Below, one piece after another: positions 2,912-54,083 of a stretch of DNA of 64,000 nucleotides. A program made the translations under genes and the position numbers. Source of the DNA: Aggregatibacter kilianii (lineage in GTDB: Bacteria > Pseudomonadota > Gammaproteobacteria > Enterobacterales > Pasteurellaceae). The notes under the pieces were generated by a model, which searched no databases, was not told where the DNA came from, and saw nothing but the letters and a program-made list of their open reading frames with translations. The stretch is taken from the NCBI RefSeq assembly GCF_003130255.1, contig NZ_NRCN01000002.1, forward strand, positions 248,001-312,000, written 5' to 3'. The first letter of the stretch is position 1. Every line of letters starts with the position of its first letter.

Positions 2912-2926
2912 CTATGTTTAGTTTAA

Positions 2927-2949: not shown

Positions 2950-3012
2950 CTCGCACGACCTACGGTCACTACCCCCTCAAGATAGCGTGTCTACCAATTC
3001 CACCACCAGAGC
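2927..3012 (-). tRNA. tRNA-Leu(GAG)
   Basis: 86 nt including an encoded CCA. The acceptor stem GCTCTGG pairs with CCAGAGC. The anticodon stem CTATC/GGTAG encloses loop TTGAGGG, so the anticodon is GAG (reads CUU and CUC). A long variable arm and the T-loop TTCAAGT are present, as expected for class II tRNA-Leu. It lies beside secG, as leuU does in Escherichia coli. Its 3' half is the likely attachment site of the element to the left. Confidence 0.96.
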
Positions 3013-3378: not shown

Positions 3379-3538
3379 TTTATCTTCTCTGATTTAGCAA
3401 ATTCTAATGAAAAATAACGGCGCAGATATTACCGGATATCTTTGCCTTTCGCAAGTCGTTTTATCTATTTTTAGGCTGTTTGGTGCAAATTCGATCAGTA
3501 AAAAACATTTTGAAAAACGACCGCACTTTTAGCTCTCG

Positions 3539-5461: not shown

Positions 5462-5476
5462 AGATGAGAATCAAGG

Positions 5477-11485: not shown

Positions 11486-11488
11486 ATA

Positions 11489-11529
11489 AAGTGCGGTCAT
11501 AAAAAACATTTTATTTTTCGACCGCACTT
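11489..11529. terminator. Inverted uptake-signal pair acting as terminator between fecE and epmA
   Basis: AAGTGCGGT (11489-11497) and ACCGCACTT (11521-11529) form a perfect inverted repeat followed by TTTTAAC. It lies between two convergent genes and can serve both. A third uptake signal at 11560-11568 lies just before the epmA stop. Confidence 0.7.
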
Positions 11530-11568
11530 TTAACATTTAAAAAAACATCGCCATTGATGACCGCACTT

Positions 11569-35836: not shown

Positions 35837-36769
35837 TTACTCCTTATATTTGTTGATATATTGTTCCTTCATATCGGGTGTTACCAATTCAAAAGGAATC
35901 CAGTTATATTTTGGAATGCTTTCACCTAGCGCGGCTTTGTATGCCATCTCAGCACTCAAACGCCCTTGCCCTGATGCAGATTGATACACCGTGGCATCAA
36001 GACCATTACCTAAATATTCCAAAGCGTCCGGGGTCGCATCAATCCCTACAATAAGCAGATCTTCATCTTTAAAACCCAATTTCTTCGCTGCCAACAAGGC
36101 ACCAATTGCCATTTCATCGTTATTACTCAGAATCACATTTGCATCTCGGTGTGCTGCTAATAGGTTTTCCGCCACTTCCATACCTTTGGAGCGGTCCCAT
36201 TTAGCTTCTTGTTCTGCCACCACGTTAATTTCAGGATGCTGTGCAAAAATCTTTTTGTTACCTTCCGTACGTTTAATTTGCGCTTCTAAACCCAATGGAC
36301 CAAGTAAAATAATTGCTTTGGCCGGTTTACCATTGAGTGACTTAACAATGAATTCTCCCTGCATTTCACCGCTTTTAATTTCTTCCGATCCCACATAACT
36401 AGACACATATTGCATATCTTCTTCATTAGGTTTTACGGTAACGACAATTAAAGGAATGTTGGCTTTCTTCGCTTTTAATCCGATGGCTTTGACAATTTTT
36501 TGATCCGTTGGCATGATAATTAACGCATCCACATTGGAATCGATAAAATTCTCTACATCGTTCAGCATTTTGGCAGGATCGCCATTAGCATCAGCATATT
36601 TAAATTTAAGATCCGACTGCGAACTGACAAATTTATTCATTGAATCCTGTAAATACGTCGGATATTTATCAGCGAGGCTATACATGGAGACACCAACTAC
36701 AATGGATTTAGCAAAAATGAGCGGAGTGAAAAAGAGACTAAAAACCAAGACGCATATCTTCTTTAACAT
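35837..36769 (-). CDS. Periplasmic sugar/inositol-binding protein (copy 2)
   Basis: 310 aa. Signal peptide MLKKICVLVFSLFFTPLIFA, then a class I periplasmic binding fold: YADANGDPAKMLNDVENFID, SSYVGSEEIKSGEMQGEFIV, SNNDEMAIGALLAAKKLGF and IVGIDATPDALEYLGNGLDATVYQS. It is closely similar along its length to the protein encoded just upstream (36852-37790), but differs at positions likely to contact ligand (SMYSLADKYPT versus PMVAFSDKWQT; VTVKP versus INRKP). It lies 62 bp upstream of the ATPase gene. Two receptors probably feed one channel. Confidence 0.87.
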   Translation of the reverse strand: MLKKICVLVFSLFFTPLIFAKSIVVGVSMYSLADKYPTYLQDSMNKFVSSQSDLKFKYADANGDPAKMLNDVENFIDSNVDALIIMPTDQKIVKAIGLKAKKANIPLIVVTVKPNEEDMQYVSSYVGSEEIKSGEMQGEFIVKSLNGKPAKAIILLGPLGLEAQIKRTEGNKKIFAQHPEINVVAEQEAKWDRSKGMEVAENLLAAHRDANVILSNNDEMAIGALLAAKKLGFKDEDLLIVGIDATPDALEYLGNGLDATVYQSASGQGRLSAEMAYKAALGESIPKYNWIPFELVTPDMKEQYINKYKE

Positions 36770-36809
36770 TGTTTATCCTCCGTTTATGAATAGATGTCTT
36801 TGAGTAACA

Positions 36810-36833
36810 GGAAAGGACAAAATCGTCCTTTCC
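36810..36833 (-). terminator. Intergenic hairpin between the two binding-protein genes
   Basis: GGAAAGGAC (36810-36818) and GTCCTTTCC (36825-36833) form a perfect 9-bp stem with a 6-nt loop and no strong T-run. I read it as an attenuator or an mRNA-stabilising hairpin that keeps the promoter-proximal binding protein at high level. Confidence 0.55.
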
Positions 36834-36851
36834 GTTGTCATTGATTGAAAA

Positions 36852-37790
36852 CTATTTTTTGTATTTCGCTTGGTATTCCTCTTTCTTATCAGGCGTCACA
36901 AGTTCGAAAGGAACCCATTCTACGGATGGAACCTTCTCGCCTTTTGCAGCAAGATATGCCATTTTAGCTCCTGCCGTACCTTGACCGGCAGCAGATTGGA
37001 ACACGGTGGCATCCAAACCTTTACCTAAATAATCTAATGCATCAGGTGTTGCATCCAAGCCCACAATAATTAAGTCCTCGTCTTTAAGACCTAATTTTCT
37101 GCCCGCCAATACGGCTCCAATCGCCATTTCATCGTTATTACTCACTACAACATTCAGATTTTTATTTGCAGCCAATAGATTTTCTGCGATTTCCAATCCT
37201 TTCGCTCTATCCCATTTACCTTCTTGTTCAGTAAAAATTTTGATGTTTTTATTCTGCGCAAAAACTTCCTTATTACCTTGAGTACGTTTAATTTGTGCAT
37301 CTTGCCCTAAAGGCCCCATTAAAATAGCGGCTTGAGCAGGTTGACCTTTTAAAGTATTAACAATAAAGTCTGCTTGAATACGGCCTCCCTCAATTTCATC
37401 TGATCCCACATAACTGGTAACATACTGCATATCTTCATCTAATGGTTTGCGATTAATAATAATGAGAGGAATACCGGCTCGTTTGGCTTTTCTACCAATC
37501 ACTTTCACAATATTCGGATCAGTTGGAACAACAAGTAATGCATCAACTTTTTGGTCAATAAAAGTCTCCGCATCGTTTAATAAGCGGGCAGGGTCGCCAT
37601 TAGCATCGGCAAGTTTGATTTCCACATCATCATGTGTTTTATCAAATTCACGAATCGCATCTTGAAGATAGGTTTGCCATTTATCGGAGAAGGCAACCAT
37701 TGGAGCGCCAATAACAACATTTTTAGCGCTAACGGCTTGAGACGTTAATAGGATTCCACCACAAAGTAACGCAAGTAGTGTTTTTTTCAT
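36852..37790 (-). CDS. Periplasmic sugar/inositol-binding protein (copy 1)
   Basis: 312 aa. Signal peptide MKKTLLALLCGGILLTSQAVSA, then a class I binding fold: LADANGDPARLLNDAETFID, TSYVGSDEIEGGRIQADFIV, SNNDEMAIGAVLAGRKLGL and IVGLDATPDALDYLGKGLDATVFQS. It is the first gene of the ABC operon (binding protein, binding protein, ATPase, permease). The NRKP segment and overall character resemble inositol-binding proteins such as IbpA. The context of iol genes on both sides supports inositol as ligand. Confidence 0.88.
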   Translation of the reverse strand: MKKTLLALLCGGILLTSQAVSAKNVVIGAPMVAFSDKWQTYLQDAIREFDKTHDDVEIKLADANGDPARLLNDAETFIDQKVDALLVVPTDPNIVKVIGRKAKRAGIPLIIINRKPLDEDMQYVTSYVGSDEIEGGRIQADFIVNTLKGQPAQAAILMGPLGQDAQIKRTQGNKEVFAQNKNIKIFTEQEGKWDRAKGLEIAENLLAANKNLNVVVSNNDEMAIGAVLAGRKLGLKDEDLIIVGLDATPDALDYLGKGLDATVFQSAAGQGTAGAKMAYLAAKGEKVPSVEWVPFELVTPDKKEEYQAKYKK

Positions 37791-38091: not shown

Positions 38092-39231
38092 TTATGCAAT
38101 ATCTTCCACGTCTATCCAACGCTTTTGTTCACAAGAAAGCGCAATAGCGTCTAATACTCTGGAAACCTTATAGCCTTCCTCAAAATCCGGATACAGCGTG
38201 CTTGCCGACGAAGCTAAGCCGTTAACTAAATCTCGAATCTCGACGGTTTTCTGATCATTAAACCCAATGCCATGACCGGCACTTACACAAAAATTCTTAT
38301 AATCCGGATGTAATGGCCCGGTAAGAATCGTTTTAAAACCTTGTCTTGCAGGATTTTCATCATGTAAATAAAGCTTTAATTCCGCCATTCTTTCTTGGGT
38401 ATAAGTGATTGTCCCCTTCGTCCCCGTAATGACATAACTTAGCCCCATTTTACGCCCGCAAGCGATGCGGGAAGTTTCAATCGTTCCCATGCAACCGTTA
38501 GCAAAACGAACTAAAGCAGTTGCCTGATCTTCATTTTCCACCGCTAACCGTTCTTGCAGATTATTAGGATTCGGTCGAGTTTTAATTACCGTTTGCATAT
38601 CGCCGATAACGGAATGAATATCCTGTCCTAATAAATACTGGGACATTTGAACAATATGCGCGGCAAGATCGCCGAGTGCACCAAGACCCGCCTTTTCTTT
38701 TACGCAGTGCCAATCCAATGGTGTATTTTCATTAGCAAGATAATCTTCATTATGCGTGCCATAAAAATGAATCACCTCACCGATTTCACCGTTTGCAATA
38801 ATTTCTCTTGCTAATTGGGTTGTTGGATTTTTTATATAATTGAACCCTACCAATGTTTTAACACCCGCTTGTTTTGCCGCCTCATACATCAATTTGGCGT
38901 CAACCGCTGTCAATGCAAGTGGCTTTTCAGAATAGACATGTTTACCATTGGCAATGGCGGCTAATGCGATTTCTTTATGAAGAAAATTAGGGGTGCATAT
39001 ATCTACGACATCCACGTTCGGATCCTGCACAATATCACGCCAATCGCCCGTAAATCGTTTAAATCCGAATTCCTTTGCTTTCTTTTCTGCTAATTCAGGC
39101 GTGACTTCAGCCAAATATTCCAACACTAATTCGGCATCAAGCGGAAAAACCGTTGGTGCCTGCGCATAAGCAATTGCATGACAACGTCCGATATACCCTG
39201 TTCCGACTAAACCGATACGCACTTGTTTCAT
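38092..39231 (-). CDS. Gfo/Idh/MocA family oxidoreductase (second inositol dehydrogenase candidate)
   Basis: 379 aa. The N-terminal Rossmann motif is GLVGTGYIGRCHA; the catalytic lysine motif is SEKPLAL; the active-site Asp/His pair lies in GALGDLAAHIVQMSQ. It is longer than and distinct from IolG (53073-54083). Members near iol genes often oxidise scyllo-inositol or other inositol isomers with NAD(P). It follows mmsA after a 90-bp gap that contains an inverted repeat. The substrate is inferred from context only. Confidence 0.82.
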   Translation of the reverse strand: MKQVRIGLVGTGYIGRCHAIAYAQAPTVFPLDAELVLEYLAEVTPELAEKKAKEFGFKRFTGDWRDIVQDPNVDVVDICTPNFLHKEIALAAIANGKHVYSEKPLALTAVDAKLMYEAAKQAGVKTLVGFNYIKNPTTQLAREIIANGEIGEVIHFYGTHNEDYLANENTPLDWHCVKEKAGLGALGDLAAHIVQMSQYLLGQDIHSVIGDMQTVIKTRPNPNNLQERLAVENEDQATALVRFANGCMGTIETSRIACGRKMGLSYVITGTKGTITYTQERMAELKLYLHDENPARQGFKTILTGPLHPDYKNFCVSAGHGIGFNDQKTVEIRDLVNGLASSASTLYPDFEEGYKVSRVLDAIALSCEQKRWIDVEDIA

Positions 39232-39321: not shown

Positions 39322-40830
39322 CTACAATGTTGGCATACTAAATGCCGCATTCTCAATCACATATTTATTCGGCCAACGCGTAGTCACAGTTTTCATTTTC
39401 GTGTAGAAACGAACCCCATCCGGACCATAAACGTTCAAGGTGGTGTAAGCAGAATGTTTCCAACCACCAAAACAGTGGAATGACATCGGCACCGGAATCG
39501 GCACATTAATGCCCACCATACCCGCTTGAACGTGATACGCAAATTCACGTGCTGCACCACCATCAGCGGTAAAGATAGCCGTACCGTTTCCATAAGGATG
39601 TTCATTAATCAATTTCATCGCTTCTTCAAAACTTTTCGCTCTGACAATACCAAGCACCGGACCAAAGATTTCCTCTTTATAAATCACCATGTCGCCAGTG
39701 ACATTATCAAACAAGGAGCCCCCGATGAAGAAGCCATTTTCATGACCAGCCGGTTTTTTACCACGACCATCAACAACAAGTGTTGCCCCTTCTTCCACAC
39801 CGGTTGTAATGTAATTCGTCACATTATTAAGGTGTTGTTGAGTAATTAACGGACCAAAGTCCATTTCTTTTTCACCGTCTTTCGGAATACCCGGACCATA
39901 ACGAAGCGCTTCTACTTTCGGTTTTAAGGCCGCCACTAATTTATCTGCGGTTTCATCATCAATCGTCACAGCTAATGCCAGAGCCATACAACGCTCACCC
40001 GCTGCACCAAATGCGGCTCCCAACAAAGCGTTCGCCGTGGATTCAATATCCGCATCAGGCATAATCAATGCATGGTTTTTCGCCGCACCAAAAGTTTGCA
40101 CGCGTTTGCCGAACTCGGAACCGACTTTATATACATGGGCAGCAGCCGGTGTAGAGCCCACAAAGCTCACCGCATGAACGCGCGGATCACGTAATAAAAT
40201 TTCATTGTCATTACGGTCACCATGTACCACATTAAATACACCATCAGGCAAACCGGCTTCTTTTAGCAACTTAGCCAAACGAATGGACAAAGAAGGATCG
40301 GCTTTCGCCGGTTTTAAAATAAAGGTATTACCGCAGGCTAATGCAATCGGGAACATCCACATCGGCACCATTGCTGGGAAATTAAATGGCGTAATACCAA
40401 CAGTTACCCCTAACGGTTGTAAGGAAGAATGAATATCAATGCCACGCCCTGCTTGCTCTGAAAATTCACCTTTCAATAAATGAGGAATACCGCATGCAAA
40501 CTCTACTACTTCCAAACCACGGGTCAATTCACCACAGGCATCGGAATAAACTTTACCATGTTCTTCAACAATTAAACGCGCCAATGAATCCCAGTCTCTT
40601 TCCAATAATTCTTTAAATTTAAACATAATACGGGCACGACGTAGCGGAGAAGTCGCCGACCAATCGGCAAAGGCTTTATGCGCAACCTCAATCGCTTCAT
40701 TGACATCATCAGGCGAACTCATGATCACTTGGCGAATTTGCTCGCCTGTTGCAGGATTATAAATCGGATGCGCTTTTGTCCCTCTGCTTGGCACTTGTTT
40801 ACCATTAATAAAGTTATAAACAGTTTCCAT
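39322..40830 (-). CDS. mmsA: Methylmalonate/malonate semialdehyde dehydrogenase (CoA-acylating)
   Basis: 502 aa aldehyde dehydrogenase of the MmsA/IolA type. Segments: FINGKQVPSRGT, GITPFNFPAMVPMWMFPIALACGNTFILKPA, FVGSTPAAAHVY and the catalytic Cys in GAAGERCMALALAV. It converts the malonate semialdehyde formed at the end of inositol breakdown to acetyl-CoA and CO2. It is first in its unit; AAGGAG precedes the ATG at 40830. A candidate IolR/CRP block lies 140 bp upstream. Confidence 0.93.
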   Translation of the reverse strand: METVYNFINGKQVPSRGTKAHPIYNPATGEQIRQVIMSSPDDVNEAIEVAHKAFADWSATSPLRRARIMFKFKELLERDWDSLARLIVEEHGKVYSDACGELTRGLEVVEFACGIPHLLKGEFSEQAGRGIDIHSSLQPLGVTVGITPFNFPAMVPMWMFPIALACGNTFILKPAKADPSLSIRLAKLLKEAGLPDGVFNVVHGDRNDNEILLRDPRVHAVSFVGSTPAAAHVYKVGSEFGKRVQTFGAAKNHALIMPDADIESTANALLGAAFGAAGERCMALALAVTIDDETADKLVAALKPKVEALRYGPGIPKDGEKEMDFGPLITQQHLNNVTNYITTGVEEGATLVVDGRGKKPAGHENGFFIGGSLFDNVTGDMVIYKEEIFGPVLGIVRAKSFEEAMKLINEHPYGNGTAIFTADGGAAREFAYHVQAGMVGINVPIPVPMSFHCFGGWKHSAYTTLNVYGPDGVRFYTKMKTVTTRWPNKYVIENAAFSMPTL

Positions 40831-40969: not shown

Positions 40970-41009
40970 TGAATTTTTTATTTCATTTTTGTGATCTGTA
41001 TCTGATTTT
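40970..41009. promoter_or_regulatory. Composite IolR-like/CRP-like block, copy 1
   Basis: TGAATTTTTTATTTCA (40970-40985) fits a TGAww-N6-TTTCA operator. TGTGA-TCTGTA-TCTGA (40990-41005) is CRP-like. The whole 40-bp block is repeated at 45844-45883 with three mismatches and in the same orientation. It lies 140 bp upstream of mmsA. The rest of the 40831-41246 gap holds only a terminator hairpin and no gene I can support. Confidence 0.6.
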
Positions 41010-41021
41010 CAGACAAGAAAA

Positions 41022-41049
41022 AGCGATACAGAAACCATTCTGTATCGCT
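41022..41049 (-). terminator. Terminator of the inositol-phosphate operon
   Basis: AGCGATACAGAA (41022-41033) and TTCTGTATCGCT (41038-41049) form a perfect 12-bp stem with loop ACCA. On the minus strand it is followed by TTTTTC. It lies about 200 bp beyond the PI-PLC-like stop. Confidence 0.85.
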
Positions 41050-41246
41050 CAGACTAATAAGAACTCACTATGCTACTGAGTTAGAAGACCTATAGAATTA
41101 GACTAAACCCCAAGAGCAAGGGCGCTATTTGCAAATCAAAGGAATCCTCAAACTACAGTAGTTGGATTTAATTTTTAAATATCTGCCGATATTAACCTCA
41201 TTAGAATAGTACACCTTAAAAATACTCTACAAACATATGTCTCCTT

Positions 41247-42083
41247 CTAGTGGTTTAGCATAAAAATTTCTCTAGCTAAATCAGGGGTAATAAAATCATA
41301 AATCTGAACACCTTTCACTCCTGACTTTTTTTTCCAAAATACTTTTGTATATTGATTTAAATATTCAGCATAAACATCAGGAAAACCTAACCTACCGTTC
41401 GTTGCACTAATATGATTAAGAATCAACTTATCACTCTGAATATTCACACTATCTTGAATAAGATGCTGAATTACTTCTTGTTTTTGGTTTAAATTAGGAC
41501 CATCCCATAAATCTTGTAACACAATATTTGGGTTTTGATGCCAATTTGCTGCCCAAAAGCCATTTTCTAATTGACTAAACTTAAACTGAACCGGAGAACA
41601 CTCCAATGCAATAATTTTACCTCTTACCTCTTTGAGTTTTGGCCATTGAGGATTTCCTTCATGTCCCAATTCGTTCGAAGACCAAAAATAAAAAAGCGAT
41701 AAATTTTGGCTAATTTTTTCTAATAACGCAGCTCCATACTCATTAAAATCGTCTTTTTTCTCATTAGCATTTTGAATGCGCATGAGAATAAACTCATCAG
41801 AATTTTGTTGTAAAAAATCACCGCACTTTTTAAGAATTTGATCAAAAGTAATGTGGCTTATCCATTCCCTATGAGCAGCTACCATTTCTTTTCGAAGTCG
41901 AATATCTAAAAACCTTACACCACAAGATAGCTGTTCTTCGAGTGATAAAGTTTGAGTTTTATAATATCGTTGCTGACAATCCGCAGTCATCGTGTCGTGC
42001 GTTCCCGGTATGAGCAACTCAGAAATATAACGTTCCGGATCACAAAACGATATCCAATTTGTCCCATTAATTAATTTATCCAT
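41247..42083 (-). CDS. Phosphatidylinositol-specific phospholipase C-like protein, no signal peptide
   Basis: 278 aa, PI-PLC X-domain fold of the bacterial type. Aligned by eye to Bacillus cereus PI-PLC, the catalytic residues are present: His29 and Asp30 in LIPGTHDTMT, Arg62 in FLDIRLR, and His71 in VAAHREWISHITFDQILK. EFILMRIQN and GVKGVQIYDFITPDLAREIF fit later strands. Known secreted enzymes cleave phosphatidylinositol and also hydrolyse the cyclic inositol phosphate. This protein starts MDKLINGTNWISF and has no signal peptide, so I infer cytoplasmic action on an imported head group such as glycerophosphoinositol. It is last in a four-gene operon. Secretion by another route is the main alternative. 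Confidence 0.8.
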   Translation of the reverse strand: MDKLINGTNWISFCDPERYISELLIPGTHDTMTADCQQRYYKTQTLSLEEQLSCGVRFLDIRLRKEMVAAHREWISHITFDQILKKCGDFLQQNSDEFILMRIQNANEKKDDFNEYGAALLEKISQNLSLFYFWSSNELGHEGNPQWPKLKEVRGKIIALECSPVQFKFSQLENGFWAANWHQNPNIVLQDLWDGPNLNQKQEVIQHLIQDSVNIQSDKLILNHISATNGRLGFPDVYAEYLNQYTKVFWKKKSGVKGVQIYDFITPDLAREIFMLNH

Positions 42084-42108
42084 AAAATACCACCTTATAA
42101 TTTAAATA

Positions 42109-43473
42109 CTAAGATTTTTTCTGTTTTAATTTAATTAAAGTGTGAGACATGAAGATTGAGAGAACAACTAATAATGCAAGACCTAAAAATGCCCATCCTA
42201 AAATTTGAGTATCTGTCAAATAGGAACGAATAATTTGACCCGCTGCATCTTTCTCAGGTGATTTTACAAGGGAACCCAACACAATAGGGGTTAATAACGC
42301 AGGAAAATAACCAATAGTAATTGCAAAAGACATGGCGGCAGAAGAATGTTTTTTATCGACTCCTAATTCACCAATAGGTGCATAGTAAACACCTCGAATC
42401 ATAAAAATACATGCAGAAGCTAATAACATTAACACCACTAAGGTCCAGAACATTGAAGTGGAAATGAGATTATCCGGTGGTTGATCCGGTAAATACCCAT
42501 TTGCATACAAAGAAATATCCGGATGATTACTAAAAAATATAAATGCTATCGCCAACAATATTATTGTGAGAATCACCTGCATTACGCGCATAAAATGAGC
42601 TGTAGAATCAAAGATTTTCTCAACCAAAACCGTTGAGACCAATGGAAGCATGCGTAAAGCAATGACTACGGTAGCAAATACGGCGGCCGCAACGGCACTT
42701 GTACCATATCCTCCCTGCAAGAAACGGGCAAAATAAGTACCGGCCGCAACAAATGCACCATAAATACAAAATACATTAATACCGACAATCCAAACAACAG
42801 GTAACTTCGCAACGTGCCATACACCTTGTAATGCTTCTTTCGTTGTTTCCACTTGGGCATCATCACCCACTTTTTGTCCTTTAGGTACAACAAAAAAGAC
42901 AGCAAACCCTGTCACAATAACAATTATGCAGCTTGTCATCATCATTTCTTTTGGACCGGCTTTGTAATAAAGCATGGCTGTCCATAATAACGATATAAGA
43001 AATGCGAGCAATCCTCTGCCAAATTCAAATAGACCAAAAGCCGCGCCTTGGTGTTCTTCAGAAGTAGAAATTCTAAGTGCTTTAAAGTTTGCAGGTTTAA
43101 ATAAAACTTCGCTAAAAAATAGCATGGAGAAAAAGCACACAAGCAGAACAGACATACTTAAGCCTGGTGATGCCAGTGTCAGAAATAATGAGATCCCGCC
43201 GACACCAATCGTTGATAACAACATGATACTTCGGATAGAAAATCGATCACCAACCCAACCTAATGCAATCGTGCCTAGAATAATAACTAAACCTTGCATG
43301 GAATATAAATAGCCGGCTTGTTGATCGGTTACACCTAAGGCAGCGGGAAAACCACCGGGGACACTGTTTCGAATATCCCAAAATGCATAAATGAGTTGAG
43401 CATTTACAGTAATAAGAATAAGTTGGAAGAACGAAGCAGGGGTAAACCCGTACTTATAAAGAAAGTCTTTCAT
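42109..43473 (-). CDS. MFS transporter (YihN-like)
   Basis: 454 aa, twelve predicted helices. Major-facilitator features: loop 2-3 motif GWVGDRFSIRSIMLLSTIGVGG and a long central loop (PKGQKVGDDAQVETTKEALQG). The N-terminus YGFTPASFFQLILITVNAQLIYAFWDIRNSVPGGF resembles uncharacterised YihN-type carriers. It lies 25 bp upstream of the PI-PLC-like gene. The substrate is unknown; its operon suggests an inositol compound or a product such as glycerol or phosphate ester. Confidence 0.8.
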   Translation of the reverse strand: MKDFLYKYGFTPASFFQLILITVNAQLIYAFWDIRNSVPGGFPAALGVTDQQAGYLYSMQGLVIILGTIALGWVGDRFSIRSIMLLSTIGVGGISLFLTLASPGLSMSVLLVCFFSMLFFSEVLFKPANFKALRISTSEEHQGAAFGLFEFGRGLLAFLISLLWTAMLYYKAGPKEMMMTSCIIVIVTGFAVFFVVPKGQKVGDDAQVETTKEALQGVWHVAKLPVVWIVGINVFCIYGAFVAAGTYFARFLQGGYGTSAVAAAVFATVVIALRMLPLVSTVLVEKIFDSTAHFMRVMQVILTIILLAIAFIFFSNHPDISLYANGYLPDQPPDNLISTSMFWTLVVLMLLASACIFMIRGVYYAPIGELGVDKKHSSAAMSFAITIGYFPALLTPIVLGSLVKSPEKDAAGQIIRSYLTDTQILGWAFLGLALLVVLSIFMSHTLIKLKQKKS

Positions 43474-43497
43474 ATAAAAACTCCTTTTCTAATCATA

Positions 43498-43531
43498 TAA
43501 AAGTGCGGTCAAAATCCACCGCACTTTTTAC
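43498..43531 (-). terminator. Inverted uptake-signal pair inside the operon
   Basis: AAGTGCGGT (43501-43509) and ACCGCACTT (43518-43526) form a tight hairpin (8-nt loop) in the 67-bp gap between the two transporter genes. It may reduce expression of the two downstream genes relative to the upstream two. Confidence 0.6.
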
Positions 43532-43540
43532 CATTCATTA

Positions 43541-44884
43541 TCAATTAGTGATTCGTTTAGTTTGATAGTACACGACGATAGCAAATAGAATGGATGCCAA
43601 AACGGAACAAAGATCTGCACCAACCCAGAAGTAAGACAGACTGTCAAAATCATAAATTTTCTTACCGGCTTCATTAATTACGGTCGTTTTATCCAACATA
43701 AACCCGGTTAAAAATTCACCTGCCGCAGCCCCTGCATAACCGAAGACGCCCATCATACCTAATGCTATGCCGGAAGCGGATTTATGGGAAATATCCGTGG
43801 CCAATAACCCACCTAAGAAGCACAATTGGATGCCAAGCGTAATACCAAATACGGAAAGGGCGATAATGGAGAACCAAGTATTGCCGCTCGGTGCAAATAA
43901 AAACGCGGCCAAGGAAATCGCATTCAACAAACTGACACCGATGGTCATAATATTTCGTTTGCCATGTAGGAAACGATCGGATAACCATCCTGAAACGACC
44001 GTTCCTAAAATACCGACGATGCTGTTCACGCTAATGATGGATGCGGCTTCAATAGTGGTATAACCTTTGCCGTTTTCAAGGAAAAACACACCCCAACTGT
44101 TCACACCGTAACGGGCGATATACATACAACAAGAGGCAACCGCCAAAATCCAAATCGCCGGATTTTTTATGACGTCCCATTGGTGCTTTAACACTTCCTT
44201 ATTATCAAAAACTTCATCTTTTGATTCGGTTTTAATAATCGGTTTATATCCACAGGACTCCGGCGAGTCTTTCATAAACATGATGGTCACAAGTACGCCT
44301 AGCAACCCGGCAATCCCTGCAAAATTGAACCCTGCACGCCAACCGAATGTGGTAATCACGGCAGCGGTGACAACAAAAGTAATACCTTCACCGACATTAT
44401 GGGCTACAGACCAAAAACCATAATAGGAGCCGCGCTCTTTATCATCATACCAACGGGATAATGCCACGACACAAGGCCCAACCCCCATAGATTGCACCCA
44501 GCCGTTGAAACCCCAAATAATGGTAAGCACAATCGCACTGGTGTTCATTCCCATGGCAAAGTTAGCAAGCGCGGAAAAAAACAATCCGACGGAAAAGAAA
44601 CGAACAATATTGGAATGGTCGGCCAAAGCACTATTGACGAATTTACCAACAGCATAAGTAATAAAGGTTGCGGAACCTATAACCCCGAGTTCTGTTGGCG
44701 TTAAGATTCCGTTATTCACCAAAATAGGTTTGGCTACGTTAAAAGATAAACGGCAGACATAATAAATGGCATAAGCAAATGAAAACGCCCAAAAGCTTTT
44801 CATTCGAGTACTCTTAAACATTTTCTCCGTGTAATCTTTCAAGGGGATTGCCGAACCGGCCTTAAAAAAGCTGAGAACTGACAT
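43541..44884 (-). CDS. Organophosphate:phosphate antiporter family transporter (GlpT/UhpT type)
   Basis: 447 aa, twelve helices. The family signature region is clear: FAYAIYYVCRLSFNVAKPILV in helix 1 and loop, and GWVQSMGVGPCVVALSRWYDDKERGSYYGFWSVAHNVGEG around helices 4-5. Members exchange inorganic phosphate for glycerol-3-phosphate, hexose-6-phosphate or related esters, with basic residues in helices 1 and 7 binding the phosphate. It lies 18 bp downstream of the inositol-monophosphatase gene. I infer glycerophosphoinositol or inositol phosphate as substrate. It could also be a UhpC-like sensor, but no two-component genes are near. Confidence 0.85.
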   Translation of the reverse strand: MSVLSFFKAGSAIPLKDYTEKMFKSTRMKSFWAFSFAYAIYYVCRLSFNVAKPILVNNGILTPTELGVIGSATFITYAVGKFVNSALADHSNIVRFFSVGLFFSALANFAMGMNTSAIVLTIIWGFNGWVQSMGVGPCVVALSRWYDDKERGSYYGFWSVAHNVGEGITFVVTAAVITTFGWRAGFNFAGIAGLLGVLVTIMFMKDSPESCGYKPIIKTESKDEVFDNKEVLKHQWDVIKNPAIWILAVASCCMYIARYGVNSWGVFFLENGKGYTTIEAASIISVNSIVGILGTVVSGWLSDRFLHGKRNIMTIGVSLLNAISLAAFLFAPSGNTWFSIIALSVFGITLGIQLCFLGGLLATDISHKSASGIALGMMGVFGYAGAAAGEFLTGFMLDKTTVINEAGKKIYDFDSLSYFWVGADLCSVLASILFAIVVYYQTKRITN

Positions 44885-44902
44885 ATAGCCTCCTTTCTAC
44901 TT

Positions 44903-45706
44903 TTATTGTGTTTCATGTGAGTTTTTGATGTGATTTAGTCTTGTAAACACAGCTTCACTACAACAACCTAAAATATAATTTCCTTTTAATAAGCCATCAT
45001 TTTCAAGGAAATTATTCACACATCCACCAGCCTCCTGAACAATAATGATTGCAGCACAAACATCCCAAGCATTAATATGCGGCTCAAAATAGCCAATCAA
45101 ACGACCTGCCGCCACATAAACCAACATTAATGCGCCGGAACCATTGCGAATAAACATTCCGCCATCAAGTAAAATTTGATGTAGCACGGGAGTAAAAGTA
45201 TTAGGATGAACGCGGTGAGACACGCCTAATCCCATTAATCCCTCTTTTAATGAGGTGGAAGAGGAAACATGAATAGGATGATCATTAAGAAATGCCCCAT
45301 CACCTTTCATTGCTCTGAATAACTCATTGTGGACGGGGTCAAAAATCACACCGGAGACAATTTGATTTTTGTGTAGAATTGCAATGGAAATGCACCAAGC
45401 ATTTAATCCATATAAAAACGGGCTGGTACCATCGATAGGATCTACCACCCAACAATATTCACAGGCTAAGTTTTCTGCACCGGATTCTTCTCCTAAAAAA
45501 CCATCTTGCGGGAAATGCTGTTTTAATGCGTCTTTAATTTTCGCTTCGACGGTTTTATCTGCAATACTAACTTGATCCTGTAAATCACCTTTTTTACACT
45601 CAATTTTTAACTCCTTACGATTGAGATAAAAATCCAGCGCAATTTTCCCAACTTCTTTGACTAACTCCTGAGAAAATAAATATCTATTTCGTAGTTCAAT
45701 GTCCAT
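44903..45706 (-). CDS. Inositol monophosphatase family phosphatase
   Basis: 267 aa. The metal-binding motifs are present: GEESG near residue 77, WVVDPIDGTSPFLYG near residue 90 (canonical form ends TTNF; here TSPF) and INAWDVCAAIIIVQEAGG near residue 217. Enzymes of this family remove phosphate from inositol-1-phosphate and similar esters with Mg2+. It is the first gene of a four-gene operon with two transporters and a PI-PLC-like protein, divergent from iolB, which supports an inositol-phosphate substrate over a role in sulfate or NADP metabolism. Confidence 0.88.
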   Translation of the reverse strand: MDIELRNRYLFSQELVKEVGKIALDFYLNRKELKIECKKGDLQDQVSIADKTVEAKIKDALKQHFPQDGFLGEESGAENLACEYCWVVDPIDGTSPFLYGLNAWCISIAILHKNQIVSGVIFDPVHNELFRAMKGDGAFLNDHPIHVSSSTSLKEGLMGLGVSHRVHPNTFTPVLHQILLDGGMFIRNGSGALMLVYVAAGRLIGYFEPHINAWDVCAAIIIVQEAGGCVNNFLENDGLLKGNYILGCCSEAVFTRLNHIKNSHETQ

Positions 45707-45843: not shown

Positions 45844-45883
45844 TGATTTTTTTGTTTCACTTTTGTGATCTGTATCTGATTTT
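45844..45883. promoter_or_regulatory. Composite IolR-like/CRP-like block, copy 2
   Basis: TGATTTTTTTGTTTCA (45844-45859) plus TGTGA-TCTGTA-TCTGA (45864-45879). It matches the block at 40970-41009 at 37 of 40 positions. It lies 138 bp upstream of the phosphatase gene and about 80 bp upstream of iolB, in a 256-bp divergent promoter region, so it may control both directions. Confidence 0.62.
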
Positions 45884-45962: not shown

Positions 45963-46793
45963 ATGAGTTATTTACTATCCAAATCAAGAAAAGATCATCC
46001 CGAAAAGAACGGCGAAGTACAAAAAATCACACCCAAAACGGCCAATTGGGAGTACGTCGGTTTTGAGATGTACCACTTACAAAAAGACCAAGAACTCACC
46101 TTCGACACAGAAAATACCGAGACTTGTTTTGTTTTGGTGGCAGGTAAAGCGACCGTGACGACTGCCCAAGCGACCTTTGAGCATATCGGAAATAGAGCCT
46201 CCCCGTTTGAACGGGTCCCACCTTATTCCGTGTATGTTCCACATCAACAACAGGTTCAAATAAAAGCGGAAAGCTATTTGGAGCTGGCTGTTTGTCGCGC
46301 ACCAAGTCAAGGCAATTTGCCGGTTCGTTTAATTGAACCGAAAGACGTGGGCGTGGAAAAACGGGGATATGGCAATAACAAGCGTTTAGTACACAATATA
46401 TTGCCGGAGACCGAAACCGCAGACGCATTATTGGTCGTAGAAGTGTTTACTGATGAGGGCAATACCAGTTCATTTCCTAGCCATAAACATGACGATAAAA
46501 ACTCGCCAACAGAAACCTATTTGGAAGAAACCTACTACCACCGTTTCTCGCCATCGCAAGGTTTTGCATTACAACGAGTCTACACTGACGACCGTTCATT
46601 AGATGAATGTATGGCGGTGTATGACGGCGATGTGGTTCAGGTACCGAGAGGTTATCATCCGGTCGCTACCATTGCCGGTTATGACAACTATTACTTAAAC
46701 GTCATGGCGGGACCGGTCAGAAAATGGCGCTTTACTTGGGAACAGGATCACGCCTGGATCAACAGTGAAAAATACGCCGATAAATTCAAATAA
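45963..46793 (+). CDS. iolB: 5-deoxy-glucuronate isomerase
   Basis: 276 aa bicupin, near the usual length. Metal-site residues lie in FPSHKHDDKNSPTETYLEETYYHRFSP, and the product-side segment VQVPRGYHPVATIAGYDNYYLNVMAG is conserved. It converts 5-deoxy-glucuronate to 5-dehydro-2-deoxy-D-gluconate in inositol breakdown. AGGAGG lies just before the ATG at 45963. It is divergent from the inositol-phosphate operon. Confidence 0.95.
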   Translation: MSYLLSKSRKDHPEKNGEVQKITPKTANWEYVGFEMYHLQKDQELTFDTENTETCFVLVAGKATVTTAQATFEHIGNRASPFERVPPYSVYVPHQQQVQIKAESYLELAVCRAPSQGNLPVRLIEPKDVGVEKRGYGNNKRLVHNILPETETADALLVVEVFTDEGNTSSFPSHKHDDKNSPTETYLEETYYHRFSPSQGFALQRVYTDDRSLDECMAVYDGDVVQVPRGYHPVATIAGYDNYYLNVMAGPVRKWRFTWEQDHAWINSEKYADKFK

Positions 46794-47956: not shown

Positions 47957-49867
47957 TTATTTGCGGGCTTGCCACAGTTTAATTAATCTTCTGTATCTTT
48001 CGCCCACTTCGGTAATCAACTCGTCATCCGTTAATTTTCCGTCAAGCCAGTCTGCCGATGGTTGTCCGAAAATGCTCCGTCCAACAGCAAAGCCTTTGAC
48101 TAAAGGCGCACCTACTGATGCGTCAAATACGGCTTTGAATTGTTCTTCCGGTGCATCTAAACCTAAAATCAGAATACCACGACAGTATGGATCGTTTGTG
48201 CGAATCACTTCACTGATATTCGCCCAGCCTTGTGCCGATACGCCCGGCAATTTCCACCAATCCGGTTTAATGCCTAACTGATAGAAGTGTGCGATGATGT
48301 CTGCATAATATTGTTCGTTTTGTTCCATATCTGCAGGCAAAATCACTTCTAATAACAATTCATGACCGGTTCGACAGCAGGCTTGATACACCTGTTTTAA
48401 GGTTGCATCCTGCTCCGCTTTCATTTCAGCACTGTCTTTCGGATGATAAAAGACCAAACATTTCACTACATGTTCTTGTGGCCAACCGGCTAATTGGCTA
48501 CCTAAATCGCCGTGTTCCAAGCGTAACGGACGGGAAGACGGCAATTCAATCGGACGTCCAATCCACCACTTTTTACCGGTAATTTCATTCAATGCGGCTT
48601 GTCCGAAAGTTGTATCCGCAAGAATCCCCGCCTGACCATCATAAATACCTTCTTCTTGCGCCGTTTTTTCCGCCGCCTGCAATAAAAGCTGTTTCAATTT
48701 AGGAATCCGTTTGACATCCGCACCGTATTTTTTTGCCATATCGACCAGTTGCTTACGATGATCAAAGGCAAAAATACACAAGTTATCCCATTTGGCTTTT
48801 CGAGTAGTCACGCGGTGTAAATGATTAAGTTGTTCATCCAAATCCGGACGAGGTACCGATTCTGCACGGGCAAGATAATTATCTAACTCCGCTTTAGTTG
48901 GCATTGCAGGAGCGCAACCGTGGCGGGAAACCACCAATGCTCCGCAAGCATTGGCATAACGACAAGACTGCTCCCAACCTTCATTATTGATGTAACCACG
49001 AATCAGACCTGACATAAAGGCATCACCCGCACCAAGCACATTCAGCACTTCCACTCTGACACCATAAACATTTAGTCCACCATCCAAATCATCAGGAATC
49101 TCACCTTCAAATACCGAGCAACCCAATGCACCACGTTTACAAACTAAAACGGCGTGGCTGAACTTACGCACGTTTTTAAGTGCGGTTAATGTATCTGTCG
49201 AACCGCCGGCAATATGGAATTCTTCTTCTGTTCCCACCAACACATCAAAATGGTGTAAGACTTCTTGCAATGATTTCGTCACCGCTTCCGAATCAATAAA
49301 ACGGGTTTCTCCATCCCCTAAGGAGGTCAGTCCCCATAACACCGGGCGATAATCGATATCCAACAAACGTTTTGTGTTATTTCTGCCCGCATATTCCAAC
49401 GCCGTCAACACCGCTTCTCTGGTTTTCGGGTGGGACAAATGCGTGCCGGTAATGGCTAAGGCTTTGGCGGAAGCAATGTAGCTTTCATCAAAATCCGCTT
49501 TAGTAATCGCCATATCGGCACAATTTTCACGGTAAAAAATCAACGGGAAAGTATCCTGATCTTTAATGCCTAAAATCACAAGCGCAGTCAAACGTTCTTT
49601 ATCCGTAATCAAATGGCTGGTATCCACTCCGACGCGTTGTAATTCCTCGCGTAAAAAACGTCCCATGTGCTCATCACCAACGCGTGCCAACATAGAAGAT
49701 TTCACGCCTTGCACCGCCGTACCATAGGCCACATTACCGGAGGATCCGCCCAGATATTTGGAAAAAGAAGAAGCGTCCTCTAATCTGGCACCGATTTGTT
49801 GTGCATAAAGATCAACAGCCACCCGACCAAGACAGATAAGGTCTAATGTTTTTTCTACCGTTTTCAT
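47957..49867 (-). CDS. iolC: 5-dehydro-2-deoxygluconokinase fused to a DUF2090 domain
   Basis: 636 aa. Residues about 1-320 are a PfkB-type kinase (LICLGRVAVDLYAQQ; YLGGSSGNVAYG; catalytic NVLGAGDAFMSGLIRGY). Residues about 325-636 form a DUF2090 domain (LCIFAFDHRKQLVDMA; LLEVILPADMEQNE; GRSIFGQPSADWLDGK), an aldolase-like barrel by family description. The kinase phosphorylates 5-dehydro-2-deoxygluconate. No iolJ aldolase is in the island, so the fused domain is the candidate for the next step. I chose the ATG at 49867, behind AAGGAATT; the open frame begins at 49906. Confidence 0.92.
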   Translation of the reverse strand: MKTVEKTLDLICLGRVAVDLYAQQIGARLEDASSFSKYLGGSSGNVAYGTAVQGVKSSMLARVGDEHMGRFLREELQRVGVDTSHLITDKERLTALVILGIKDQDTFPLIFYRENCADMAITKADFDESYIASAKALAITGTHLSHPKTREAVLTALEYAGRNNTKRLLDIDYRPVLWGLTSLGDGETRFIDSEAVTKSLQEVLHHFDVLVGTEEEFHIAGGSTDTLTALKNVRKFSHAVLVCKRGALGCSVFEGEIPDDLDGGLNVYGVRVEVLNVLGAGDAFMSGLIRGYINNEGWEQSCRYANACGALVVSRHGCAPAMPTKAELDNYLARAESVPRPDLDEQLNHLHRVTTRKAKWDNLCIFAFDHRKQLVDMAKKYGADVKRIPKLKQLLLQAAEKTAQEEGIYDGQAGILADTTFGQAALNEITGKKWWIGRPIELPSSRPLRLEHGDLGSQLAGWPQEHVVKCLVFYHPKDSAEMKAEQDATLKQVYQACCRTGHELLLEVILPADMEQNEQYYADIIAHFYQLGIKPDWWKLPGVSAQGWANISEVIRTNDPYCRGILILGLDAPEEQFKAVFDASVGAPLVKGFAVGRSIFGQPSADWLDGKLTDDELITEVGERYRRLIKLWQARK

Positions 49868-49894
49868 AATGCAATTCCTTCTACTTAGTAAAAT

Positions 49895-50106
49895 TGTTTC
49901 ACCCACACAAATTGAAACACATATTTCAAAAAAATCAATATTGAAATTTAATTTTTTAGACCTTAATCACAAAACAAACATCATCCGATTTTCTATTCGG
50001 TATTTTATGATTCATACTGTTAATAGGCTGTTTAAGTGTTTTTTAAAGATAAAATATAAATTCGGGAAAATTTGATCTATGTCTCAAAAATGAAATTTTT
50101 GTTTCA
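49895..50106. promoter_or_regulatory. iolC-iolD divergent promoter with candidate IolR operators
   Basis: The 309-bp gap holds TGAAA-CACATA-TTTCA (49913-49928), TGAAATTTTTGTTTCA (50091-50106), and a wider inverted repeat TGTTTCA (49895-49901)/TGAAACA (49913-49919). The second shares TTTTTGTTTCA exactly with the block at 45844. These define a TGAAA-N6-TTTCA element at iol promoters. Confidence 0.6.
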
Positions 50107-50176: not shown

Positions 50177-52117
50177 ATGAAAACCGTAAGACTTACTGTT
50201 GCACAAGCGCTTATAAAATTTCTTGATAATCAATATATCGAATTTGATGGCAAAGTAACAAAATTTGTTGAAGGTATCTTTGGTATTTTCGGTCATGGCA
50301 ATGTGCTTGGAATCGGTCAGGCGTTGGAACAAGACAGTGGTGATCTGATTGTGCGCCAAGGACGTAATGAACAAGGCATGGCGCACGTGGCAATCGGCTT
50401 TGCCAAACAAAATTTGCGTAAAAAGATTTATGCCTGTACCTCCTCCGTGGGCCCCGGTGCCGCCAATATGATTACCGCAGCCGCAACAGCAACCGCTAAC
50501 CGTATTCCGCTTCTTCTTTTACCCGGCGATGTGTTTGCCACCCGCCAACCGGATCCGGTGTTACAACAAATCGAACAATTTCATGATCTGAGTATCAGTA
50601 CAAACGATGCATTCAGAGCCGTAAGCAAATATTGGGACAGAGTCAGCCGCCCGGAACAACTGATGACCGCCTGTATTAATGCCATGCGGGTATTAACGGA
50701 CCCGGCGGACACCGGCGCAGTAACAATCGCCCTGCCGCAAGATGTTCAAGCGGAAGCCTATGATTTCCCGGAATACTTTCTACAAAAACGGATTCATCGT
50801 ATTGAGCGTACGTTACCGACCGAGCCAATGTTGAAATTGGCCGTTGATCTTATTATGAGTGCGAAAAAGCCGTTAATGATTTGCGGCGGTGGCGTGCGTT
50901 ATTCCGAAGCGGCAGAACAACTCAAACAGTTTGCCGAAACCTTCCAAATTCCTTTTGCCGAAACACAAGCAGGTAAAAGTGCGGTCGTTTCTGAGCACGT
51001 TTTGAATGTGGGCGGCGTAGGAGAAACAGGTTGTTTAGCAGCCAACCTGTTAGCGAAAGAGGCAGATCTGATTATCGGTATCGGCACACGCTACACGGAT
51101 TTCACCACCTCTTCAAAATGGATCTTCCAACATCCGAATGTGAAATTCCTAAACATCAACATTGCCCGTTTTGACGCTTATAAACTGGATGGCGTTCAAG
51201 TGGTTGCCGATGCCAAAGAAACGTTAGAAAAACTGACCGCACTTTTAGCACCGCGCGCCTATCAACCACAGTGGAGCAACGCCGTTGCAGAAGCCAAAGT
51301 GCAGTTTGCTCAAGAACTCCATCGTATTTATCACGCCACCTACACTGAAACCGACTTCGTACCGGAAGTCAATGACGCATTGGATCGCGAAAAAGTTTAT
51401 GCGGAGTTTATCAAGCTCACCCAATCCTGTCTGACACAGAGCCGCGTTCTGGGTATTCTCAATGAAACCCTGGGTGCCAATGACATTATTGTGGGCGCTG
51501 CTGGTAGCCTGCCGGGCGACTTACAACGTGCTTGGCAATCCAAGGGCGAAAATACCTATCATCTCGAGTATGGCTATTCCTGCATGGGCTATGAAGTCAA
51601 CGCCGCGTTAGGAGCAAAATTGGCCCAACCGGAAAAAGAGGTTTACGCCTTACTAGGCGATGGTTCTTACATGATGCTCCATTCCGAGCTCATCACATCA
51701 GTGCAGGAACATAAAAAGATTAACGTGATTTTACTAGACAACATGACCAACGGTTGCATTAACAACCTGCAAATCGGCAACGGTATGGACAGTTTCGCCA
51801 CTGAATTCCGTTTCAGAAATCCGCAAACCGACAAATTGGATGGCGGATTTGTGCCCGTTGATTTCGCGATGAATGCGGCGGCCTATGGATGCAAAACCTA
51901 TAAAGTCACGACAGAAGAAGAATTGCACGTGGCCTTAGCCGATGCCAAAAAGCAAAATGTGTCTACTTTAATTGATATTAAAGTATTGCCAAAAACGATG
52001 ATTCACGGCTATGGCAGCTGGTGGCACGTTGGCGTGGCAGAAGTTTCGGAAAAAGAAAAAATCCGCAAAGCGCATGAACGCAGTGTGAAACATATTAACG
52101 AAGCACGTCGTTATTAA
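50177..52117 (+). CDS. iolD: 3D-(3,5/4)-trihydroxycyclohexane-1,2-dione hydrolase
   Basis: 646 aa thiamine-diphosphate enzyme. The cofactor glutamate lies in [19 protein letters not shown]; the ThDP/Mg motif is [19 protein letters not shown]...LLDNMTNG; the pocket segment [18 protein letters not shown] is present. It opens the inositol-derived ring dione to 5-deoxy-glucuronate. AAAAGGAG precedes the ATG at 50177. It heads iolDEG. Confidence 0.96.
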
Positions 52118-52173
52118 TTCGTGATTCAATTGATTATCTCCAATTTAACCATTCTGTTGAGAAGGAAAAAACT

Positions 52174-53070
52174 ATGAAAGCTGAAAACGTGAAATTAGGT
52201 ATCGCGCCAATCGGTTGGACAAACGATGATATGCCTGATCTTGGTAAAGAGAATACCTTTGAACAATGTGTCAGTGAAATGGCGCTGGCAGGTTTTACCG
52301 GATGTGAAGTTGGAAATAAATATCCGCGCGATGTGGAAGTGCTAAAACACAAGCTAAGTGTTCGCGGAATTCAAATTTGTAATGCCTGGTTCAGTACGTT
52401 TTTCGTGGACGGCAAAAAAGAAGAAACCATTCAAGAGTTTATTAAACATCGTGATTTCCTTCATGCTATGGGCGCCAAAGTCATCGGCTGTTCTGAGCAA
52501 AGCCGTAGTATCCAAGGCACAACAAAAGCCGTTTTCAAAGAGAAAACCATCTTCACCGAAGATGAATGGCAAAAATTAGCGGAAGGCTATAACGAACTGG
52601 CTAAACTTGCTGCCGAAAAAGGCATGAAAGTGTGTCTGCATCACCACATGGGCACCGGCATTCAAACGCCGGAAGAAATTGATAAATATATGACAGTCGT
52701 TAACGATGACGTGTATTTGTTATTCGATTCAGGTCACCTCTATTATTCCGAAGGATCACAACAAGCCATGTTGGACGTGTTGGAAAAATACATCGACCGT
52801 ATTTGCCACGTTCATTTGAAAGATGTGCGTGACGATGTCGTGGCGGAAGTCAAAGCCAATGATTTAAGTTTCTTGGAAGGCGTACGCAAAGGTACATTTA
52901 CCGTGCCGGGAGACGGCGTTATCGACTTCAGACCGATTTTCGACATTCTCGAAAAACACAATTACAAAGGCTGGATGGTGGTTGAGGCGGAACAAGATCC
53001 GGCCATCGCCAATCCGTTTGAATATGCCGTTAAAGGCCGTAAGTACATTAAAGAAACAGCGGGGATTTAA
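52174..53070 (+). CDS. iolE: Myo-inosose-2 dehydratase
   Basis: 298 aa, xylose-isomerase-like TIM barrel. Characteristic segments: [17 protein letters not shown] at the N-terminus, [30 protein letters not shown] and [14 protein letters not shown], with metal-binding Glu, Asp and His residues. It dehydrates 2-keto-myo-inositol to the trione precursor used by IolD. It follows iolD by 56 bp and ends 2 bp before iolG. Confidence 0.96.
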
Positions 53071-53072
53071 TC

Positions 53073-54083
53073 ATGATTAAAGTAGGCATTATCGGCGCCG
53101 GTCGTATCGGTCGCGTGCATTCTGAAAGCATCACAAAATATGTCAAAGGGGCTGAAATCAAAGCGATTTCCGATGTTCGCGTCACTGATGAGCTCAAGCA
53201 ATGGGCGAAAGATATGGGCATTCCGCACGTTTATGAGGATTACAAACAAATTCTGCAGGATCCTGAAATTGACGCCGTGTTAGTGTGTTCCTCCACCAAT
53301 ACCCACGCACCGATTTCTATTGAAGCCGCCCGTACCGGCAAACACATTTTCTGCGAAAAACCGGTAGATGCCGATGTGAATCGCATTAAAGAAGTCTTGG
53401 CTGAAGTAGAAAAATCCGGCGTGAAATTCCAAGTAGGTTTTAACCGTCGCTTTGACCATAACTTTAAAGCCATCAAGACCCGTGTAGAAAACGGCGACAT
53501 CGGCGAACCGCACTTAATTCGCGTCACCTCCCGCGACCCGGATGCACCGCCGATTGAATACGTAAAAGTCTCCGGCGGGATGTTCTTCGACATGACTATC
53601 CACGATTTCGATATGATCCGTTATTTATCCGGTAGCGAAGTGGTGGAAGTGTATGCGGCAGGCGGCGTGTTGGTGAATCCGGAAATCGGCAAAGCCGGCG
53701 ACATTGACACTGCCGTCATCACGTTAAAACTCGCTAACGGTGCTATCGGTGTGATCGATAACAGCCGAAAAGCGGTTTACGGCTACGACCAACGGGCAGA
53801 AGTGTTCGGCTCCAAAGGCGCGGTACAAACCCGTAATGATACCGATTCTACCGCCGTATATTCCTGTGAAGCCGGTGTTATCGCCGAAAAACCGAAATAC
53901 TTCTTCTTAGAACGCTATATGCAATCTTTCGCCGATGAAATGGCGTGTTTTGTGGATTCCGTAGTGAACGACAAACCAACTTTAGTGAACGGCAATGACG
54001 GGTTACAACCTGTGATTATCGCACTTGCCGCCAAACGTTCTTTAGATGAAGGACGCCCGGTAAAACTGGCGGAAATTGCTTAA
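53073..54083 (+). CDS. iolG: Myo-inositol 2-dehydrogenase
   Basis: 336 aa Gfo/Idh/MocA dehydrogenase. NAD motif GIIGAGRIGRVHSESI; catalytic Lys in FCEKPVD; active-site Asp and His in FFDMTIHDFDMIRYL. It performs the first step, myo-inositol to 2-keto-myo-inositol. It follows iolE directly. The order iolD-iolE-iolG ends with a terminator. Confidence 0.95.
   Translation: MIKVGIIGAGRIGRVHSESITKYVKGAEIKAISDVRVTDELKQWAKDMGIPHVYEDYKQILQDPEIDAVLVCSSTNTHAPISIEAARTGKHIFCEKPVDADVNRIKEVLAEVEKSGVKFQVGFNRRFDHNFKAIKTRVENGDIGEPHLIRVTSRDPDAPPIEYVKVSGGMFFDMTIHDFDMIRYLSGSEVVEVYAAGGVLVNPEIGKAGDIDTAVITLKLANGAIGVIDNSRKAVYGYDQRAEVFGSKGAVQTRNDTDSTAVYSCEAGVIAEKPKYFFLERYMQSFADEMACFVDSVVNDKPTLVNGNDGLQPVIIALAAKRSLDEGRPVKLAEIA

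Follow-up and report, generated by a model that had tools for sequence, protein, structure and literature searches.

Two separable gene modules, one pairing a carrier with an apparently cytosolic PI-PLC, in an inositol catabolic island of Aggregatibacter kilianii

The 64,000-nucleotide stretch of Aggregatibacter kilianii DNA analysed here (contig NZ_NRCN01000002.1, forward-strand positions 248,001 to 312,000; hereafter the window) carries four minus-strand genes, within an island for inositol catabolism, whose products may act on phosphorylated inositol. The open reading frames (ORFs) at 44903-45706, 43541-44884, 42109-43473 and 41247-42083 are separated by 18, 67 and 25 bp and matched Pfam Inositol_P (8.2e-55), MFS_1 twice (2e-46 and 3.5e-17) and PI-PLC-X (3.9e-8), which bears out the genes, gaps and families given in a preliminary description of this DNA. 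The four genes fall into two modules, either of which also occurs alone: module A, a phosphatase and an antiporter, and module B, a major facilitator superfamily (MFS) carrier and a phosphatidylinositol-specific phospholipase C (PI-PLC). Their features are given below as coordinates, strand and identity; G and L numbers in the text denote genomes and loci.

44903-45706, minus: module A phosphatase of the inositol-monophosphatase (IMPase) family, 267 aa (PF00459)
43541-44884, minus: module A antiporter of the GlpT/UhpT type (organophosphate antiporter family, OPA), 447 aa (match to GlpT, PDB 1pw4)
43497-43530, minus: inverted pair of AAGTGCGGT sites of the uptake signal sequence (USS) type; the hairpin that they form divides module A from module B and may terminate module A (folding, congeners)
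42109-43473, minus: 454-aa MFS carrier of module B, for which import of a soluble inositol phosphodiester is proposed (MFS_1)
41247-42083, minus: 278-aa PI-PLC of module B, a bacterial calcium-independent type lacking a signal-like N terminus
41021-41050, minus: terminator-like hairpin 3' of the PI-PLC gene (terminator scan and folding)
41010-43494, no strand assigned: 2,485 bp with module B, absent at the same site of congeners (blastn and reading of sites)
45861-45882, minus: 22-bp motif AAATCAGATACAGATCACAAAA upstream of module A (motif search with shuffles)
40987-41008, minus: identical 22-bp motif AAATCAGATACAGATCACAAAA upstream of iolA (motif search with shuffles)

Searches of three families recovered the module B carrier and the PI-PLC each in the same set of genomes: 5/140 in the window's family, 16/200 in the Varibaculum family and 3/189 in the Selenomonas family. 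Across the three families they thus shared 24 of 529 genomes and were never apart at the thresholds used (PI-PLC, E 1e-3 in the window's family or 1e-10; carrier, 1e-60 in the window's family or 1e-80). One metagenome-assembled Propionibacteriaceae genome (L041) brought the loci compared to 25, and the carriers of the 24 loci other than the window's, from three phyla, were 60-88% identical to it. The inseparable partner of the PI-PLC is this second MFS carrier, not the GlpT-type antiporter. iolB scored above its cut-off in 5/5 pair-bearing genomes of the window's family (background 57/140) and 16/16 of the Varibaculum family (background 95/200), with hypergeometric values of 0.010 and 3e-6, respectively, uncorrected for kinship. 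The three Selenomonas-type pair genomes all held a weaker iolB match (E about 1e-22, below the cut-off), and no iolB was found in the genome of L041. Co-occurrence with iol genes, which the preliminary description had proposed as a check, was therefore seen for the carrier and PI-PLC in all 24 genomes (3 weakly), and the four genes proved not to be one conserved unit. Module B had iol genes around it or close by in the window, Histophilus, G647 (inside an iol cluster) and the three Selenomonas-type genomes, in which iolE is about 9-11 kb away.

Among 394 genomes drawn from the order, three carriers were found, all in the window's family, and none of 72,556 plasmid records gave a carrier match at 1e-50. 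A scan of named genomes by peptide patterns of the single PI-PLC returned no relative; a scan of them with the carrier alignment gave matches but missed eight Varibaculum-family genomes that the family search found. A record named Tissierella (L042) shared its gene order and 92% DNA identity over 8.9 kb with a Varibaculum and is probably mislabelled.

The separateness of the modules was evident within the window's own genus, where iolB was present in five of nine genomes searched. In the islands of G015, G016, G017 and G018, the phosphatase and antiporter alone were followed by the inverted AAGTGCGGT pair and then by the region before iolA. By blastn against G017, 2,485 bp of the window (41010-43494) stood in place of about 10 bp, with flanks 91% and 99% identical, and the segment was also absent from the same site as read in G015, G016 and G018. 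Both module B genes and the hairpin at 41050-41021 lie within the segment, whose G+C content is 36% against 42% for the window. Gain by insertion at this site is the simpler reading. Alternatively, module B may have been present ancestrally and lost repeatedly in the congeners, for which Histophilus (G082) speaks: there the carrier and PI-PLC, without phosphatase and antiporter, occupy the equivalent place between iolB and iolA.

Other arrangements were found elsewhere in the family. G016 carries the carrier and PI-PLC at another site behind a broken phosphatase gene, and Gallibacterium G051 and G052 have the complete four-gene block, in unchanged order, at a third location apart from iol; the four-gene order was intact in three of the five genomes of the family that hold the pair. 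A single four-gene operon, as first proposed, is not supported as a conserved unit, given the occurrence of the modules apart in G082, in G016 and in 16 genomes with module A but without module B at the site. In G016 the broken phosphatase (L006 7440-8160) precedes an intact carrier and PI-PLC, and a second, intact phosphatase-antiporter pair lies in the iol island. In the carrier tree, which like the PI-PLC tree was midpoint-rooted, the Selenomonas-type rows fell inside the clade of the window's family: they grouped with the window, G016 and Histophilus (99/97) to the exclusion of Gallibacterium, a placement that points to transfer between phyla. The PI-PLC tree returned the same eight-row group (95/96) with its inner order unresolved.

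The boundary between the modules is marked by the hairpin at 43497-43530 (-19.5 kcal/mol, z -5.4), and each of the four congeneric islands read (L044-L047) has the same inverted AAGTGCGGT pair behind its antiporter gene. USS pairs are known to act as terminators, and the hairpin is a putative terminator of module A. It was missing from the terminator scan list, by our reading because its T run lies within the stem. The claim that the block ends in one terminator was upheld in that a terminator-like hairpin lies at 41050-41021, and needs amending in that a strong conserved hairpin also stands between genes 2 and 3. A search for the motif AAATCAGATACAGATCACAAAA (22 bp, up to 3 mismatches allowed) gave two matches in the window, both exact, and none in 100 shuffles. 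The copies precede the phosphatase and iolA at nearly equal distances from the start codon (156 against 154 bp); both recur in L044, L045 and L047, and in L046 one has the same form and the other a looser one. Because it shares this motif with iolA, module A is tied to the iol genes. The right half of the motif resembles a CRP half-site.

The PI-PLC was assigned the fold common to the bacterial calcium-independent enzymes (PF00388 type) over nearly its whole chain, the closest solved relatives being those of Listeria, Bacillus and Staphylococcus (PDB 1aod, 1ptd/1gym and 3v18). The residues with catalytic roles in the B. cereus enzyme (H32, D33, R69, H82 and D274) corresponded to H29 and D30 (24/25 proteins), R62 and H71 (25/25) and D263 (24/25), the gaps being due to the ORF start in L083, where the motif is in frame upstream, and to a contig end in L041. 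No hydrophobic N-terminal segment was found in 24/25 proteins of the three phyla (maximum 12-residue hydropathy mean 1.34), as calculated over whole listed ORFs without a dedicated signal-peptide program, L083 being not measurable. The enzyme is apparently kept in the cytosol, and since it has no signal-like N terminus its substrate is probably soluble and imported. When compared with the OPA family by hhalign, the module B carrier aligned in one 84-column patch (probability 89).

GEE, DPIDGT and WD motifs were found by eye in the module A phosphatase, which matched PF00459 with 186.6 bits (cut-off 27) and whose closest PDB relatives are inositol-1-monophosphatases; it fell below the cut-offs for inositol-1-monophosphatase (129.8 of 332 bits) and HisN (151.8 of 275). 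The antiporter aligned over most of its length with GlpT (PDB 1pw4, E 5.6e-53), the next PDB match being SLC37A4. Four GlpT residues with key roles, R45, K80, H165 and R269, aligned with R45, K81, H162 and R258 (HMMER alignment with 1pw4, by eye). The curated cut-offs were missed by far for GlpT (213.6 of 632.6 bits), UhpT (164 of 497) and PgtP (157.1 of 750), and that for UhpC was likewise missed. Of the 140 genomes of the window's family, 19 had an antiporter orthologue (E <1e-100), in each case with the phosphatase adjacent, and 17 of the 19 also had iolB (Fisher 4e-6, uncorrected). The pair seems to decay together in loci L054 and L059 (genomes G025 and G012): the antiporter has stops in G025 and is split in G012, where the phosphatase is split too.

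Module B is accompanied by different phosphate-handling enzymes in different lineages. An IMPase adjoins it in the window and in Gallibacterium, and eight Varibaculum-family genomes have an IMPase behind the PI-PLC that is 27-32% identical to the window's. In 3/3 Selenomonas-type genomes, the gene behind that for the PI-PLC encodes a protein of roughly 970 aa, and near iolE a GlpT-like carrier has a similar protein behind it; in L033 both contain a Pfam calcineurin-like phosphoesterase domain. In L078, the two proteins (3077-5992 and 9430-12333), one behind each inositol-related carrier of Selenomonas, combine calcineurin-like phosphoesterase and lectin-like domains. Seven loci, namely six of the other eight Varibaculum-family genomes and L041, have a PfkB kinase between the carrier and the PI-PLC, and the seven kinases are 46-50% identical to that of L041. 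The one of the seven compared with PDB (L084) matched TM0415 (8.5e-36), which, according to an excerpt of PMC5931981, converts myo-inositol and pyrophosphate to myo-inositol monophosphate. The residues K171, F221, R229, R232 and M266, given in that excerpt as the signature of this pyrophosphate-dependent myo-inositol kinase, were kept in L084 as K, R, R and M, with F221 replaced by L (by eye, one of seven aligned). In G647 and G688, neither an IMPase nor a PfkB kinase was seen beside the pair. Since several kinds of phosphate enzyme stand beside one pair, it can be argued that the product of the pair carries both phosphate and inositol.

The placement of the genes inside an inositol catabolic island, stated from the start, stood up to family scoring: the four-gene block lies between iolB and iolA, and iolA, iolB and an iolC-aldolase fusion scored above their NCBIfam cut-offs. 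The island also holds iolD, iolE and iolG, an RpiR-type regulator and a sugar ABC transporter with two binding proteins. The names iolD, iolE and iolG are our assignments from family likeness and gene order.

39322-40830, minus: iolA-type methylmalonate-semialdehyde dehydrogenase (TIGR01722, 647.9 bits, cut-off 448.5)
45963-46793, plus: iolB, 5-deoxy-glucuronate isomerase (TIGR04378, 337.4 bits, cut-off 205)
47957-49906, minus: iolC kinase-aldolase fusion (NF047869, 892.1 bits, cut-off 600)
50177-54083, plus: iolD, iolE and iolG, three genes presumably so named (ORFs; same neighbour order in G082, L009-L011, and in L044)

A Gfo/Idh-type dehydrogenase at 38092-39231 is nearest to levoglucosan dehydrogenase (357.8 bits, below the cut-off of 650), not to iolG, and stays adjacent to iolA in related islands. 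The two tandem sugar-binding-protein genes of the ABC transporter operon (35837-37790) are alike by eye, and their ligands perhaps differ. At 1520-3012, a 409-aa ORF of phage-type integrase appearance (by eye) adjoins a tRNA-Leu gene, as at the edge of a genomic island.

Our reading, to which we give a probability of about 0.6, is that module B imports an inositol phosphodiester that is cut inside the cell for dephosphorylation and iol catabolism, and that module A imports and hydrolyses inositol phosphate. The module B carrier would take up an intact water-soluble diester, most likely glycerophosphoinositol from the deacylation of phosphatidylinositol. PI-PLC chemistry proceeds in two steps, to inositol 1,2-cyclic phosphate and then to inositol 1-phosphate, and the cytosolic enzyme would carry the imported diester through both, releasing glycerol. 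A phosphatase, here the module A IMPase and in other lineages other enzymes, would free inositol and phosphate, and the Iol enzymes would burn the inositol. Module A alone would serve inositol phosphate that is already available: the GlpT-type antiporter would bring it in against outgoing phosphate, and the phosphatase would hydrolyse it. Glycerophosphoinositol is the first candidate because, according to an excerpt of PMC3725514, eukaryotic cells contain it ubiquitously and macrophages release it. Scavenging of phosphorylated inositol that feeds the iol pathway, the core of the preliminary description, gains comparative support from the pairing, from iolB and from the lineage-specific neighbours; its form changes, in that there are two modules and the PI-PLC is probably cytosolic with the second carrier as its partner.

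Several observations count against this scheme. Substrates, transport direction, regulation and growth benefit are what we infer for both modules. The carrier family names no substrate and has no PDB relative by sequence; the carrier model reached a predicted local distance difference test (pLDDT) score of only 70, and its fold matches were scattered over many MFS families, SLC37A4 among them. The phosphatase and antiporter scored under every specific family cut-off tried, and no promoter of its own was identified for module B in the window. The PI-PLC pocket differs from that of B. cereus in the same way in 25 rows (K115 to N, R163 to C and G83 to R; in the window N105, C162 and R72), R72 replacing G83 next to the catalytic histidine. 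Listeria PI-PLC likewise departs from B. cereus at the K115 and R163 positions while retaining G83, so the substrate may be something other than plain glycerophosphoinositol. Kinship inflates the co-occurrence figures, 19/25 module B loci show no recognised iol gene in the flanks read (some of them short), module A lies inside an iol island in 5/19 genomes, which all belong to the window's genus, and outside such islands in the other 14, and two of the 19 (G085 and G132) lack iolB. The kinase beside the PI-PLC in seven loci is unexplained by the simple scheme.

The pocket and the N terminus could also be read as signs of a different substrate. Module B might import inositol 1,2-cyclic phosphate made by the secreted PI-PLCs of others, with the cytosolic PI-PLC performing the hydrolytic step only. 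We hold this to be unlikely: the absence of a signal-like N terminus and the R72 next to the catalytic histidine would suit it, as would the hydrolytic step that bacterial PI-PLCs perform, but the catalytic set for the first step is fully kept, known PI-PLCs turn over the cyclic phosphate slowly, and its supply is probably small. The pocket residues specific to this clade would equally fit another soluble inositol phosphodiester, such as the head group of inositol sphingolipids, glycans or bacterial inositol lipids, or a phosphorylated glycerophosphoinositol; gut Bacteroidetes also make inositol lipids, according to part of PMC9246714. Against such a substrate, to which we assign a small chance, glycerophosphoinositol is the simplest supply, given the occurrence in eukaryotic cells and the release by macrophages described in the PMC3725514 excerpt.

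A more elaborate proposal accommodates the kinase, and we advance it as speculation that is probably wrong in at least some part. The carrier and PI-PLC would be a transferable glycerophosphoinositol cassette with a cytosolic nutrient PI-PLC, and the reversible pyrophosphate-type inositol kinase of the actinobacteria would run backwards on inositol 1-phosphate, replacing the phosphatase and keeping part of the energy of the diester as pyrophosphate.

It is very improbable that the PI-PLC is exported by an unusual route to attack host membranes, with the carrier importing the released products, as its closest solved relatives from Listeria, Bacillus and Staphylococcus, which are secreted, might suggest; the hydrophobic N-terminal segment is lacking in 24/25 proteins of three phyla. 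A loose neighbourhood, in which module A scavenges phosphate from assorted organophosphates and module B has nothing to do with inositol, could draw on the separation of the modules in many genomes, on the 14/19 genomes with module A away from iol and on G085 and G132, but is rendered highly improbable by iolB above the cut-off in 21/25 module B genomes and weakly in 3 more, by the PI-PLC itself, by the inositol-kinase-type neighbour and by the motif common with iolA.

Known bacterial PI-PLCs are secreted and attack membranes; compared with the calcium-independent enzymes of that kind (1aod, 1ptd/1gym and 3v18), the present ones have no signal-like N terminus and a carrier partner in every genome found, and K115, R163 and G83 of the secreted Bacillus enzyme are replaced. 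The module A antiporter resembles GlpT/UhpT (OPA) and SLC37A4 in alignment and in the four key residues, and differs in its low family scores and its phosphatase partner. To our knowledge, yeast does not process what its transporter Git1 brings in with a PI-PLC of the present type. The uptake of whole glycerophosphoinositol proposed for module B would be the same idea as that by Git1 (and mammalian Glut2; PMC3725514).

The classical iol pathway begins with free inositol, and the modules, with iolA, B, C, D, E and G around them here, would supply it from phosphate esters. The Thermotoga transporter InoEFGK is of the ABC type, and inositol-phosphate uptake in Thermotoga was reportedly suggested by Rodionova in 2013. 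The Thermotoga maritima inositol cluster has a parallel in the TM0415-like PfkB kinase between carrier and PI-PLC in seven actinobacterial loci (one compared), whereas its transporter is InoEFGK (PMC3750489, in part) and here an MFS carrier stands with a PI-PLC. No account of a carrier and PI-PLC unit was found among the listed matches from the open-licence literature searched.

Many of the genera that bear the pair are known from animal mucosa. The strict pairing of a carrier with an apparently cytosolic PI-PLC, in three phyla and tied to inositol catabolism, stands against the picture of PI-PLCs as secreted attackers of membranes. If the proposed scheme is true, glycerophosphoinositol would be a food of bacteria, and the module B carrier would be a candidate bacterial transporter for it.

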